Source: a virus. From it: 57,437 bases of DNA. Below are positions 44,939 to 57,437 of this stretch, piece by piece. Location: positions 1 to 57,437 of the IMG/VR virus record IMGVR_UViG_3300018481_000008; one strand, given 5' to 3'. Positions within the stretch are counted from its first letter, which is position 1, and each line of letters begins with the position of its first letter. The notes below the pieces were generated by a model, which saw nothing but the letters and a program-made list of their open reading frames with translations, did not search any database and was not told where the DNA came from. Made by a program: the position numbers and the translations under genes.

Positions 44939-44969
44939 TTAGTACGTACCTCCCTTCTGCAAATTGGAG

Positions 44970-44999
44970 TGTATATGATGGTGAGGTATGGTGCTACAA
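44970..44999 (-). promoter_or_regulatory. Weak candidate late promoter
   Basis: On the minus strand TTGTAG (plus 44994-44999), 18-bp spacer, TATACA (plus 44970-44975), 32 bases before the first late gene. Position is right; boxes are imperfect, so a phage-specific factor may be needed. Confidence 0.35.
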
Positions 45000-45059
45000 G
45001 TCACTACTACATAGTAACAATACGCACAAGTCCATTTGGAGCATTGGAGATACTTGGGG

Positions 45060-45765
45060 CTGATCGCCACTTCGCTACGCTCGCCGTATGTAGAGTCCCT
45101 CCCACGCCAAAGGAACCACGTGGGAACAGGGGTGCTGCTCCTCTCTCACAAAACAGAGGCTACGCGCAGGGTAGGGCGTAGGGCGAGACTTGGAAGCGAA
45201 GGATTGCGCGCAAGGGCTAGCAGTAGACAGCGCGGGTCTGGAAGCGGCACGTTCGAGAGGATGCCGTCGAGTCAGGGTAGAGCACCTATCCGGTAGTGAT
45301 TGCGCCTCACGCCTCTACGGGTGAGAACGCGCGGCGAGCAGTAGGGACTACTCAAACCCCTAGCCGCGCAACGCTAGCTACTGAACGCGCACGAAGGGAC
45401 GTAGCGCCGGTTTACGGCTCACGCGGTCTAGAGTGTACGAAGCATGGTAGCGGGACGGCTCACGCCTAACCCGCCACTAGCCGAGTACCGCATACATAGA
45501 CGCCCATACAGGGACGGTGAGAGTAAGACGGTAGCGCTGACAAAGAACGTGCGTAGAGCGTAGACCCCTTGCAAGGTCTACGCTAAGTCTTGGCAGGGTA
45601 CGCGCTACCGTAGGCGTACCTTGCACTAGGCCGTAGGGCAGAGAACAGGGACATACCGCAGGGCACACTAGCCACATACCCGCTAGACCCCTAGCAACCC
45701 GCCCGTAAGGGCTATCCCGTACCCTCTACGGCCTAGTGCAGGGTTTCCTGCTACGGAAGGGACAC
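45060..45765 (+). ncRNA. GC-rich stem-rich block, candidate large ncRNA (strand inferred)
   Basis: About 700 nt with no credible gene on either strand. In three consecutive lines (45241-45420) I count 112 G+C of 180 (62%), against 24 of 60 in a coding line at 50221. Helices include CTCAC/GTGAG 45306-45310/45321-45325, AGTAG/CTACT 45340-45352, GCGGG/CCCGC 45450-45474, a 10-bp stem 45557-45566/45575-45584, GGTACGC/GCGTACC 45597-45603/45614-45620, and a 15-bp stem 45622-45636/45726-45740. The last encloses GCCC-GTAA-GGGC, a GNRA-type tetraloop (45701-45712). An 11-mer, ACGGCTCACGC, occurs at 45414 and 45455. It lies between the divergent operons, so an origin or packaging site is an alternative. 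Confidence 0.5.
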
Positions 45766-47123: not shown

Positions 47124-47143
47124 GCAACAACTAGCCCTGTAAG

Positions 47144-47310
47144 CTAGGGGCTAGTGAAGTACCGGGAAGAGACTAACGTAACCTTCGATCCCAATTCACT
47201 CCACTAAGACTTCTCTATCTTAGTGCCCGGAAGGTAGCCCACTATTATATTATCAGGGCGAGAGTGTTAACGGCGGGATTACGTTAGCCCGGTACTTCAC
47301 TAACCCCTAG
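47144..47310 (+). ncRNA. Multi-helix structured RNA element
   Basis: The closing helix pairs 47144-47166 with 47288-47310 in 22 of 23 positions (one C-A mismatch). After a 6-nt bulge it continues with CTAACGTAA/TTACGTTAG (47173-47181/47279-47287). Inside are CCTTC/GAAGG (47182-47186/47230-47234) enclosing CACTAAGA/TCTTAGTG (47202-47209/47218-47225), and GCCC/GGGC (47237-47240/47256-47259). It ends 15 bases before the start of a 35-codon gene, so it may be a regulatory leader or an independent RNA. Confidence 0.65.
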
Positions 47311-48042: not shown

Positions 48043-48257
48043 TGCATACCATCGGAAATGAGACTACTGAGTTTGTGAACATTCGGGATCTAATCATGGA
48101 TTCCGTCCGAGCACTTTGTAGGTACGGCATTCTTCCTGAGAATGCAAGCAAGGAGATTGTAGTGCAGGAAGTTTGTGAGTCAACCGGATTGCCCTTGTCA
48201 AACAACTCGATCGGTGCTAGTATTGCCTACGGTGCATACGAACACTATCAGCACTAA
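48042..48257 (+). CDS. Small hypothetical protein
   Basis: 71 residues; starts on the last base of the preceding stop (TAATG). Helical, two Cys. Unrecognised. Confidence 0.55.
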   Translation: MHTIGNETTEFVNIRDLIMDSVRALCRYGILPENASKEIVVQEVCESTGLPLSNNSIGASIAYGAYEHYQH

Positions 48258-48269
48258 GGAGATATAGCT

Positions 48270-48392
48270 ATGAAGATTCGGATGGGAGTCGGAGTCTGGA
48301 ACGTTACTGCAATTTGGTTTGGTGCTGAGCGCGTGGTTTACTCTCATCCTGATATCTTCGCTTGTTTCAAGTGGGTTAGGGATAACGAGTAA
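48270..48392 (+). CDS. Small hypothetical protein
   Basis: 40 residues; AAGGAG upstream of ATG. Strand-rich, aromatic (VWNVTAIWFGAERVVYSHPD). Last gene before a 1-kb gene-free stretch. Confidence 0.5.
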   Translation: MKIRMGVGVWNVTAIWFGAERVVYSHPDIFACFKWVRDNE

Positions 48393-48394
48393 GT

Positions 48395-48550
48395 AAGTTC
48401 GTCTTAGGAGTCATATCGGGACACTTGGGCAATGGGCCAAGTCACGAACTTTGAGTCGGACTGTAGTAGCCTAAGAATCTACAGTCTGCATCTTAGAGGG
48501 AATGTAGAATCCGGAGGGAAATACGCTGTATTCAGGTAGGAGCTTACAGC
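48395..48550 (+). ncRNA. Structured element with possible pseudoknot
   Basis: AAGTTCGT/ACGAACTT (48395-48402/48444-48451) encloses ACTTGG/CCAAGT (48423-48428/48437-48442). Next is GACTGTAG/CTACAGTC (48459-48466/48479-48486), whose loop holds CCTAAG (48470-48475), complementary to CTTAGG 48403-48408 inside the first helix. GCTGTA/TACAGC (48525-48530/48545-48550) follows. No gene in this stretch. Confidence 0.5.
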
Positions 48551-48562
48551 ATGGTTGGTATG

Positions 48563-48712
48563 GTTAATAAGCGGGGAGACTTCCCTCAGTGAAAGGCAAT
48601 TAGGTTAGCGGTACAAGCCTACCAAGGTAGTTGGCCCGGTTCTAACTGAAAGCATACTCACTGGTATAGTCGGCCTCTCCCCGCTCATTAACTCTATTGA
48701 CTATAGAGTTAG
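48563..48712 (+). ncRNA. Structured element A with overlapping 3' hairpin
   Basis: Closing stem 48563-48579/48676-48692 (16 of 17 pairs), with GTTAG/CTAAC (48604-48608/48642-48646) and CTAC/GTAG (48619-48622/48627-48630) nested inside. The last four bases of the closing stem, TAAC 48689-48692, also begin a 9-bp perfect hairpin TAACTCTAT/ATAGAGTTA (48689-48697/48703-48711), so the two helices compete. Same design as 48932-49078. Confidence 0.6.
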
Positions 48713-48744
48713 GTAGGACAAGATAAGGTAAATGTAATGACCAT

Positions 48745-48875
48745 GCCCCGGAAGCATAAGGGTATATGCGCCCGAAAGCATTGTGACTAGTCATCACTAG
48801 TAAGTCTTTCCACTAACTAGACTGGTTAGTGTACCGTGTGTAGGGAGATAGCGGGTTTGAATCCCGTCCGGGGCT
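48745..48875 (+). ncRNA. tRNA-shaped element with a 65-nt anticodon loop
   Basis: Acceptor GCCCCGG 48745-48751 pairs with CCGGGGC 48868-48874 (7/7), then T as discriminator. D arm GCAT/ATGC (48754-48757/48766-48769) has an 8-nt loop with GGG. G at position 26. Anticodon-like stem CCCGA 48771-48775 with TAGGG 48841-48845 (4/5). Variable loop AGATA. T arm GCGGG/CCCGT (48851-48855/48863-48867) with loop TTTGAAT. Everything is spaced as in a tRNA except that 65 nt replace the 7-nt anticodon loop. Those 65 nt contain ACTAGT/ACTAGT and CACTAAC/GTTAGTG hairpins. No CCA is encoded. Confidence 0.6.
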
Positions 48876-48931
48876 GCTTATCTTAGCAAGTAACGAGGCG
48901 TCGTTCCACGCCTACCTACCAAAGAAGTAGT

Positions 48932-49078
48932 GTTAATGAGATACAAAGGTTGCCTGTTGCTAGGTATCCGTGAGAGGTTGACTGTCCCCAGGCCGACGGG
49001 CTATGCCACAGTCTGTTCTACTCTCAATGCCAATCGGAGCATCTTTGTATCTCATTAACTCTACTAAGGTAGAGTTAG
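48932..49078 (+). ncRNA. Structured element B with overlapping 3' hairpin
   Basis: Closing stem of 17 perfect pairs, 48932-48948/49043-49059, with TCCG/CGGA (48967-48970/49035-49038), TGAGAG/CTCTCA (48971-48976/49021-49026) and GACTGT/ACAGTC (48980-48985/49008-49013) nested inside. Its last bases TAAC (49056-49059) also begin TAACTCTAC/GTAGAGTTA (49056-49064/49069-49077), a 9-bp hairpin with a TAAG loop. Paralogous in design to 48563-48712. Confidence 0.65.
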
Positions 49079-49080
49079 TA

Positions 49081-49391
49081 AGGCAGTAGGTTTGCCTCTG
49101 ATAGTGTAAGACCTAGAATGGAGGAAGTTCGCAACTTGCGTCCATATAAGGCTACAGCAGAGGGTAAAACTAAGAACACGATACCGTAGGTAGGCGTGAG
49201 TCTTAGGGTGATCTAGGATGCCTAGGATACTTCCTAGTGAGCTAACGATACCAAGAAGGATCGCTAGGATAAACAATTCCAACAGTGACCTACTGATCTA
49301 TTGTTAGGGTGATGTTGGTATTGCGAGGTCGGTGTTCGTGCCTTGCCTAGCCAAACTTACTGTCTTACTAACTTTACTAAGGAAAGGAGGA
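49081..49391 (+). other. Gene-free stretch with minor hairpins and a degenerate motif copy
   Basis: No supported gene. AGGCA/TGCCT (49081-49085/49093-49097) and AAGTT/AACTT near 49126 are short hairpins, and TAAGAC 49107-49112 can pair with GTCTTA 49200-49205. TAACTTTACTAAGG at 49369-49382 matches TAACTCTACTAAGG of element B (49056-49069) at 13 of 14 positions and leads directly into the ribosome site of the next gene. Confidence 0.45.
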
Positions 49392-49394
49392 ATG

Positions 49395-49562
49395 ATGATC
49401 GGTACTAAGGTTGTAGCAACAGTGCCATACACTACTCGTCAGAAACACGGCGAGGTAATCGCTATGAAGGATGGTTTGGCTGTCATCAAGTGGAACGGCT
49501 GTCATCATACGCAGATGGTCATTCCTCGTTTCCTGCACCGATTGGAGGTTCGTAATGACTAG
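49395..49562 (+). CDS. Small hypothetical protein
   Basis: 55 residues. AAAGGAGG followed by ATGATG; the second ATG (49395) is preferred by spacing. SH3-like beta pattern (GTKVVATVPYTTRQKHGEVI). Confidence 0.55.
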   Translation: MIGTKVVATVPYTTRQKHGEVIAMKDGLAVIKWNGCHHTQMVIPRFLHRLEVRND

Positions 49563-57131: not shown

Positions 57132-57316
57132 AACGGTACTGTCCATATTGTGAGTTTTCTACTCTAGAGTATTCAGTAGCGCATAACTGCTTCTACTGTC
57201 TAGAGTGTGAGTTCGTGTGTGTAGTGCCTAGGGGCGACCATACTAGAGGTATAAGGTATGGCGTCAAGACTACAAGGCTACCATCAAGACGAACGCTAGG
57301 CAGGGTAGTCATTTAA
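57128..57316 (+). CDS. Small zinc-ribbon protein
   Basis: 62 residues. CPYC and CLEC form a four-Cys zinc ribbon; the C-terminal half is basic. Its start is buried in a hairpin. Its TAA spans the end-repeat border, so the gene crosses the circle junction. Confidence 0.65.
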   Translation: MERYCPYCEFSTLEYSVAHNCFYCLECEFVCVVPRGDHTRGIRYGVKTTRLPSRRTLGRVVI

Positions 57317-57437
57317 AGGGAGGGAAGTAGCACTTTCAGTGGGCGCTACTTCCCTCCAACTAAATATGGAAGGAGCCACATCAAACGTAGCGGCGGTAAC
57401 TTCCAGAGGTAGAGGACTAAGCTACGCATGATCCTCT
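57315..57437. repeat. Exact 123-bp end repeat (circular overlap), right copy
   Basis: Second copy of bases 1-123. Joining the two copies gives a 57,314-bp circle in which the plus-strand early region continues without a break from 45,769 through the junction to 17,310. Confidence 0.9.

Follow-up and report, generated by a model that had tools for sequence, protein, structure and literature searches.

A phage non-coding RNA family with a tRNA-shaped central domain and a variable head

Results

The analyzed DNA, termed the window here, is the whole 57,437-nt stretch of an IMG/VR virus record. Both of its ends (positions 1–125 and 57313–57437) carry the same sequence and, because they repeat each other, suggest a complete, circularly assembled genome. 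Terminase relatives of the window were phage contigs from metagenomes, and the nearest named ones belonged to Arthrobacter and Microbacterium phages at about 35% identity. A plus-strand tract of ~1 kb (48393–49390) contains no convincing gene and folds into long-stemmed units, comprising E1, a tRNA-like element, E3 and E4; the features of this tract described below lie on the plus strand. E1 (48560–48698), a structured RNA with a long closing stem, is located directly upstream of the tRNA-like RNA, and its motifs GTGAAAGGCRATTAG and TGAAAGCATACTCA..TCGGCCTC recur in a related phage genome, G048 (L208, 14390–14530), 5′ of the orthologue described below. The RNA-like units E3 (about 48930–49060) and E4 (about 49070–49375) each have a closing stem of at least 17 bp. 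A search of 48250–49450 for terminator-like sites found none.

Other parts of the window are also gene-poor and strongly folded, namely 44939–45735 and 47124–47310. Part of the first, 800-nt tract folds far better than shuffled sequences (z about −7 at 45501), and a close relative, G001, has a long-stemmed unit with a 20-bp stem at the matching place (L001, about 500–660). Another relative, G012, contains a long-stemmed unit that matches window positions 47152–47302.

The first-pass annotation had described a tRNA-shaped element at 48745–48875, and every part that it listed is present where it had been placed. The acceptor-like 5′ strand GCCCCGG (48745–48751) pairs at all seven positions with 48868–48874, where the 3′ strand CCGGGGC is followed by TG (together 48868–48876), and compensatory changes occur in this helix among orthologues. 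A D-like arm, GCAT-AAGGGTAT-ATGC (48754–48769), recognized by both a structural descriptor and orthologue comparison, is separated by a single base, G26, from an anticodon-type stem in which CCCGA (48771–48775) pairs with TAGGG (48841–48845) at four of five positions; the orthologues have CCGTT/AGCGG and GCCGT/TCGGC. The variable loop is AGATA (5 nt), the T arm is GCGGG-TTTGAAT-CCCGT (48851–48867) and the discriminator is T. Acceptor, D and T arms thus lie at the spacing of a functional tRNA (RF00005). The 7-nt anticodon loop, U33 and anticodon of such a tRNA are absent; the loop comprises 65 nt and has no U33. Tertiary signals are weak, with A instead of U at position 8 and U at T-loop position 56.

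To describe this shape, the descriptor combined a perfect 7-bp acceptor, a 4-bp D stem with GG in its loop, a single following base, a 5-bp stem tolerating one mismatch, a loop of anywhere from 7 to 120 nt, a 4–5-nt variable loop and a T arm with a TTYRA loop. It matched once in the window, with acceptor, D-like arm and T arm as given above, versus no match on either strand of 1,959 order-1 Markov genomes of equal size, so the element is not a chance arrangement. Standard tools passed over the element: ARAGORN, including its intron mode, made no call on it and returned only noise at lowered thresholds with introns, and a search with Rfam 15 left it undetected at gathering cut-offs and at E up to 10.

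Comparison with orthologues showed that 48745–48875 spans no more than the central domain of a longer RNA at 48712–48920, which is closed by the two helices P1 and P2 and ends in a hairpin, H5. In P1, GGTAGG (48712–48717) pairs with CCTACC (48915–48920), a pairing supported by the fold as well as by relatives with GGATGG/CCATCC (G056, a second related phage) and AGTAGG/CCTACT. The P2 5′ strand AAGATAAG (48720–48727) pairs with the 3′ strand CTTATCTT (48877–48884), replaced in relatives by ACAGTAAG/CTTACTGT (G048) and AAGGTAAG/CTTATCTT. Between P2 and the acceptor runs a 17-nt leader (48728–48744), which measures 15–20 nt in nearly all homologues and 17 nt in most; in G048 it extends to 42 nt through an inserted hairpin. 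H5 (48895–48914) has the sequence GAGGCGT-CGTTCC-ACGCCTA with flanks AAC/CC, pairs 48896–48901 with 48908–48913 and, as AACGAGGCGU..ACGCCUACC, is near-invariant in 19 phages. Just 5′ of P1 lies a further hairpin with a 7-nt loop, H0 (AACTCTA-TTGACTA-TAGAGTT, 48690–48710). Its pairing is maintained through compensatory changes in G056 (AACCTAG-TTGACTA-CTAGGTT) and in G048 (AGCTAAG-TTGACAA-CTTGGCT), where the hairpin is positioned inside the leader. The unconstrained minimum-energy fold of 48710–48922 (−73.0 kcal/mol) retains P1, H5, the acceptor and the T arm and omits P2, which when enforced gives −69.5 kcal/mol, a cost of 3.5 kcal/mol.

The orthologues were obtained from relatives identified by terminase and helicase, among them G048 (59.3 kb) and G056 (a 42.9-kb contig). 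Their elements share the frame of the window RNA, with acceptors GCCCCCA..TGGGGGC and GCCCCTA..TAGGGGC, connectors of 99 and 106 nt (99 in the window), the same 3′ flank TGCTT after the acceptor, and inserts that each combine CTAGTCA with a hairpin bearing a 7-nt loop. Scanning IMG/VR for this CTAGTCA/hairpin arrangement returned nothing beyond G056, G048 and another contig with an identical copy. Of the 53 pairs in the three orthologues, 28 have both bases changed in one comparison or more, and only two of 159 cells are broken. Beforehand, the finding that no homologue keeps the pairings had been named as decisive against the element; homologues keep them, and with covariation. The same covariation already contradicts the reading as a tRNA gene in decay with an acquired insertion, which we consider highly improbable. 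Such decay would fit A8, U56, the anticodon-stem mismatch and the missing anticodon, but the orthologues have diverged to low protein identity and still retain every helix and the insert motif, and the wider family is conserved as well.

Within the 65-nt head that replaces the anticodon loop (48776–48840), CTAGTCA (48787–48793) is identical in all three orthologues. The first-pass annotation had proposed that the insert folds on its own. Of the hairpins it listed, CACTAAC/GTTAGTG recurs in relatives, whereas ACTAGT-CATC-ACTAGT is not kept, its first half coinciding with the conserved CTAGTCA. The retained hairpin, CACTAAC-TAGACTG-GTTAGTG (48811–48831, 7-nt loop), corresponds to GTCAGT-CTGACTA-ACTGAC and CCTTGA-TTGACTG-TCAAGG in the orthologues; all six pairs are changed on both sides while loop size is constant. 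GACT in each of the loops TAGACTG, CTGACTA and TTGACTG is able to pair with AGTC of CTAGTCA, pointing to a putative pseudoknot.

The head is inserted at the anticodon loop, and flanking stems pair, which raises the question of a pre-tRNA with a new short intron whose head would be removed and whose halves would be joined to a working tRNA. ARAGORN in intron mode indeed calls the orthologues tRNA-Glu with introns of 62 and 66 nt, and some homologues have standard D and T arms with an 8-bp stem under the insert (L323). However, the three orthologues would yield His-, Glu- and Glu-type triplets, only one has U33, and no splice junction that would give a standard anticodon loop is common to them. 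The insert is also far too short for a group I or II intron, Rfam called no ribozyme, and a search for an RtcB ligase gene found none. In addition, the acceptor ends are held in conserved, covarying outer helices that a mature tRNA would lose, and some family members do without a large insert (L286, 73 nt; PMBT37, 72 nt). A spliced tRNA is therefore unlikely. The first-pass annotation had left the choice between an interrupted tRNA and a tRNA mimic, the latter as a possible ligand of tRNA-processing enzymes or host anticodon nucleases; covarying homologues favor the mimic, while the interrupted tRNA gains no support, as no common junction or anticodon emerged.

Beyond these close relatives, BLAST with the window RNA revealed a 27-nt identity over H5 with Pseudomonas phage Psa21 (E 5e-4), at a gap without annotation that lies within a tRNA cluster. 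A weaker match, in an Erwinia phage, also adjoined tRNA genes. Starting from these matches, the RNA was traced to Serratia, Pectobacterium, Klebsiella and Salmonella phages and to phage TPWB-08. The layout P1–P2–17-nt leader–tRNA-like–UG–P2′–H5–P1′ recurs in the Salmonella, Pectobacterium and Klebsiella phages and, with a shorter acceptor, in the Erwinia and Serratia phages, usually in unannotated gaps near tRNA genes. PMBT37, CBB, RaK2, 2050HW and pEa29 have a common spacing (acceptor to P2′, 2–3 nt; P2, 8 bp; leader, 15–18 nt; P1, 6–9 bp), and the acceptor of 2050HW and pEa29, the Serratia and Erwinia forms, is no longer than 5 bp. The tRNA-like part of PMBT37 scores 49.5 bits as a tRNA in Rfam, yet is unannotated in its record. 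After the acceptor, most homologues show a T/C-G-C-T signature.

An H5 pattern scan of IMG/VR returned at least 119 stretches, a figure that does not count family members, as some exact matches look protein-coding and are probably due to chance. Among the 77 H5 loci with enough upstream sequence, a canonical T arm was present in 25, compared to 1.7% of control windows, and a T arm followed by YGCT in 18 (0.09% of control windows). For P1, P2, the acceptor and the T stem in ten phages, 253 of 254 cells were paired, with compensatory change in 22 of 26 pairs; re-dealt partners paired in 60% of cells on average and never in more than 73%. Because partners in P1, P2 and the acceptor were picked by complementarity, the share of paired cells is overstated; covariation, fixed spacing and an independent model match are the stronger evidence.

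That model, R1, spans the T arm through H5 and was trained on 19 phages outside the group of the window, at loci chosen for H5 and a T arm. Its E-values are rough. In the window it gave a single match at E up to 5 (48851–48915, 57.9 bits, E 4e-14), in which T arm, acceptor, YGCU, P2′ and AAC-GAGGCG..CGCCUAC follow in family order; the window RNA likewise has the family's closing helices P2 (8 bp) and P1 and its leader of 15–20 nt. Outside the training set, R1 matched G056 (61.4 bits), CBB (53.2), Psa21 (52.1), G048 (50.5), TPWB-08 (49.3) and RaK2 (40.0), and the remaining matches, at most 28 bits, were mostly ordinary T arms. A CBB-type consensus matched 44 records, and an IMG/VR-derived consensus of the H4–H5 part matched none among named phages. 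The RNA is unnamed and unannotated in Rfam 15 and in the genome records searched. We found no description of it in the literature, which is weak evidence given that few subscription journals were covered.

Across this family, the base is the constant part of the RNA and the head the variable one. The tRNA-like parts range from 60 to 145 nt: L286 (73 nt) and L294 (112 nt) have nearly identical leader, P2 and linker but different tRNA-like parts, and L289, L301 and L323 carry parts of 111, 123 and 145 nt on one scaffold. Neither an intron within an unchanging tRNA nor decay fits this pattern well, whereas a constant handle that carries a binding head does.

A further reading takes the domain as a tRNA-like processing mark, cut by RNase P and a 3′ tRNase to separate E1 upstream from E3 and E4 downstream. 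mascRNA is a tRNA-like RNA released by RNase P, and the Serratia phage domain weakly resembles it (30.1 bits, below cut-off); the canonical T arm and acceptor and an array lying all on one strand would also suit cutting. Leader and trailer are, however, locked together by the covarying P2 and P1, and H5, the fixed 17-nt leader and a structured head would be superfluous for a mere cutting mark. We regard this role as rather unlikely.

H5 also occurs without the tRNA-like domain, between Q and the holin gene of coliphage CUS-3 and, in Kumotta, ReT1v-1 and Vibrio and Acinetobacter phages, in gaps that are devoid of genes and lie upstream of other genes; it may thus serve a separate function. E. 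coli genomes contain the CUS-3 stretch, unannotated among the matches listed. H5 additionally ends a different conserved RNA that has no tRNA-like domain (L262, L263, L246 and L247, with GCUGUCCCAGGUUGCCGCUGGGGAAAACC..GGUCAGCCUAAGAACGAGGCG in L262 and L246) and thus looks like a reusable module. These solitary copies in the CUS-3 gap and similar gaps make a cis-acting leader or operon element the main rival. H5, P1 and P2 would then be a signal in the nascent RNA that either modifies RNA polymerase or directs how long untranslated or late transcripts are processed, with the tRNA-like domain as a structural or RNase P-recognized part. The location in arrays of non-coding RNA or tRNA and the lack of a terminator-like site around the window RNA are in line with such a signal. 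On the other hand, downstream genes differ everywhere, the fast-changing heads are left unexplained, CUS-3 already has the Q antiterminator, and the cis antiterminators known to us are compact with no need for tRNA mimicry. We consider a cis-acting role doubtful, although it deserves more weight than splicing or a processing mark.

The RNA is accessory, as no family-level R1 match was obtained in G012, the closest full-length relative found, or in G003, G008 and G023. As the closest long relatives lack the RNA, a DNA comparison with the first terminase relatives yielded no homologue. An exact T-arm/acceptor pattern likewise found no match in IMG/VR, nor did a search with the neighboring SprT-like protein. 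A link to G012 through the motif TTGAC..AGGTAGGA was rejected, since the array there corresponds by synteny to another part of the window. Descriptor matches in G006 and G038 fell inside protein-coding stretches and were set aside as chance.

Several relatives contain other unusual tRNA-like structures. G012 has a 112-nt tRNA-like element with an expanded anticodon arm (L137, 10806–10917), treated here as another gene on account of its different synteny and the absence of CTAGTCA and H5, as well as an RNA closed by 24 bp that shows only the tRNA top half, with acceptor, T arm and a 14-nt connector (L137, 19368–19412, minus strand). An array in G055 (L199, 560–1460) comprises several T arms, ~7 copies of a motif like GATGCGNAG..GGGTTACTTC and tRNA-like halves; as a 3′ half precedes its matching 5′ half, the sequence may encode a permuted or interrupted tRNA. 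In the more distant G029, G030 and G032, the D or anticodon arm of certain tRNAs is enlarged (L127 10169–10287, L150 18851–18969 and L130 2599–2727), and some of these tRNAs are followed by ACGT or ACGC in place of CCA.

Discussion

Among characterized RNAs, the functionally nearest is YrlA, with which the phage RNA has in common a basal stem and a tRNA-like domain. YrlA, a bacterial Y RNA (RF02553), has a basal stem formed from both ends and a tRNA-like domain that copies the D, T and acceptor arms; this domain is a binding site for PNPase and a substrate of the modification enzymes DusA and TruB (PMC8394870). The YrlA model gave no match at E up to 10 in 48300–49450, and a search for an Rsr/Ro60 (TROVE) gene found no phage-encoded one in nine genomes, the phage and its relatives; a host-encoded partner is possible. 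We know of no YrlA with H5 or with the P1–P2–leader layout.

Like tmRNA (RF00023), the phage RNA joins a tRNA-like top half to other sequence in place of the anticodon region. It differs in having a D stem and no tag frame conserved among orthologues, and the tmRNA model has no match in the window. True tmRNA genes exist in G012 (L137, 10362–10694, minus strand, 85.3 bits) and G056 (L203, 15383–15676, 79 bits), for which ARAGORN reads the unusual tag peptides GADNKCPDFIPDWVMDEVLVAV and AERNTSNKVLTTLKVSGGGVRKAAR, respectively. At the place of the tmRNA array of G012, the window has a gene for a collagen-like repeat protein (383–1489).

Other comparisons are more remote. RNAs C and D of phage T4, which are stable but not tRNAs, are transcribed together with a tRNA cluster and may be comparable. 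GOLLD and ROOL, large ornate RNAs of phages and bacteria often found near tRNA genes, are much larger than the phage RNA, and neither has an Rfam match here. Archaeal and eukaryotic tRNA introns and bacterial group I tRNA introns resemble it in the insertion at the anticodon loop, whereas the phage RNA has conserved outer helices, the wrong size and no conserved exon–intron junction or anticodon. Since the RNA is not YrlA by Rfam or by a phage-encoded partner, and has no tmRNA tag frame or model match, we assign it to a new family within the tRNA-mimicking non-coding RNAs, built like YrlA but distinct from it.

On balance, the element probably forms the central, tRNA-shaped part of a ~210-nt non-coding phage RNA that functions as a stable, trans-acting, non-decoding tRNA mimic. 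It is organized into a base of P1, P2 and H5, a middle of acceptor, D-like and T arms, and the variable head on top. The RNA would be transcribed together with its neighbors, elsewhere often tRNA genes, and its closed base may keep it stable. Acting in trans as a mimic that does not decode, it could offer its T/D elbow to elbow-recognizing proteins, for example TruB-type modification enzymes, RNase P or PNPase-type partners, with H5 and the base perhaps holding a second partner. The head would confer specificity and diverge fast, as expected for a decoy or adaptor in phage–host conflict. More tentatively, it is possible that the family represents a widespread, uncatalogued class of phage RNA in which exchangeable tRNA-shaped heads on a constant base (P1, P2 and H5) serve as interchangeable decoys or adaptors directed at host systems that handle or cut tRNAs.

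Few covarying tRNA-shaped non-coding RNAs are known in bacteria, tmRNA and YrlA among them, and the one described here is conserved in several unrelated phage groups. The covariance model makes this family searchable. Why phages carry tRNA clusters has long been puzzling, and a head-swapping, non-decoding mimic inside them, if true, would provide a testable reason for part of these clusters.
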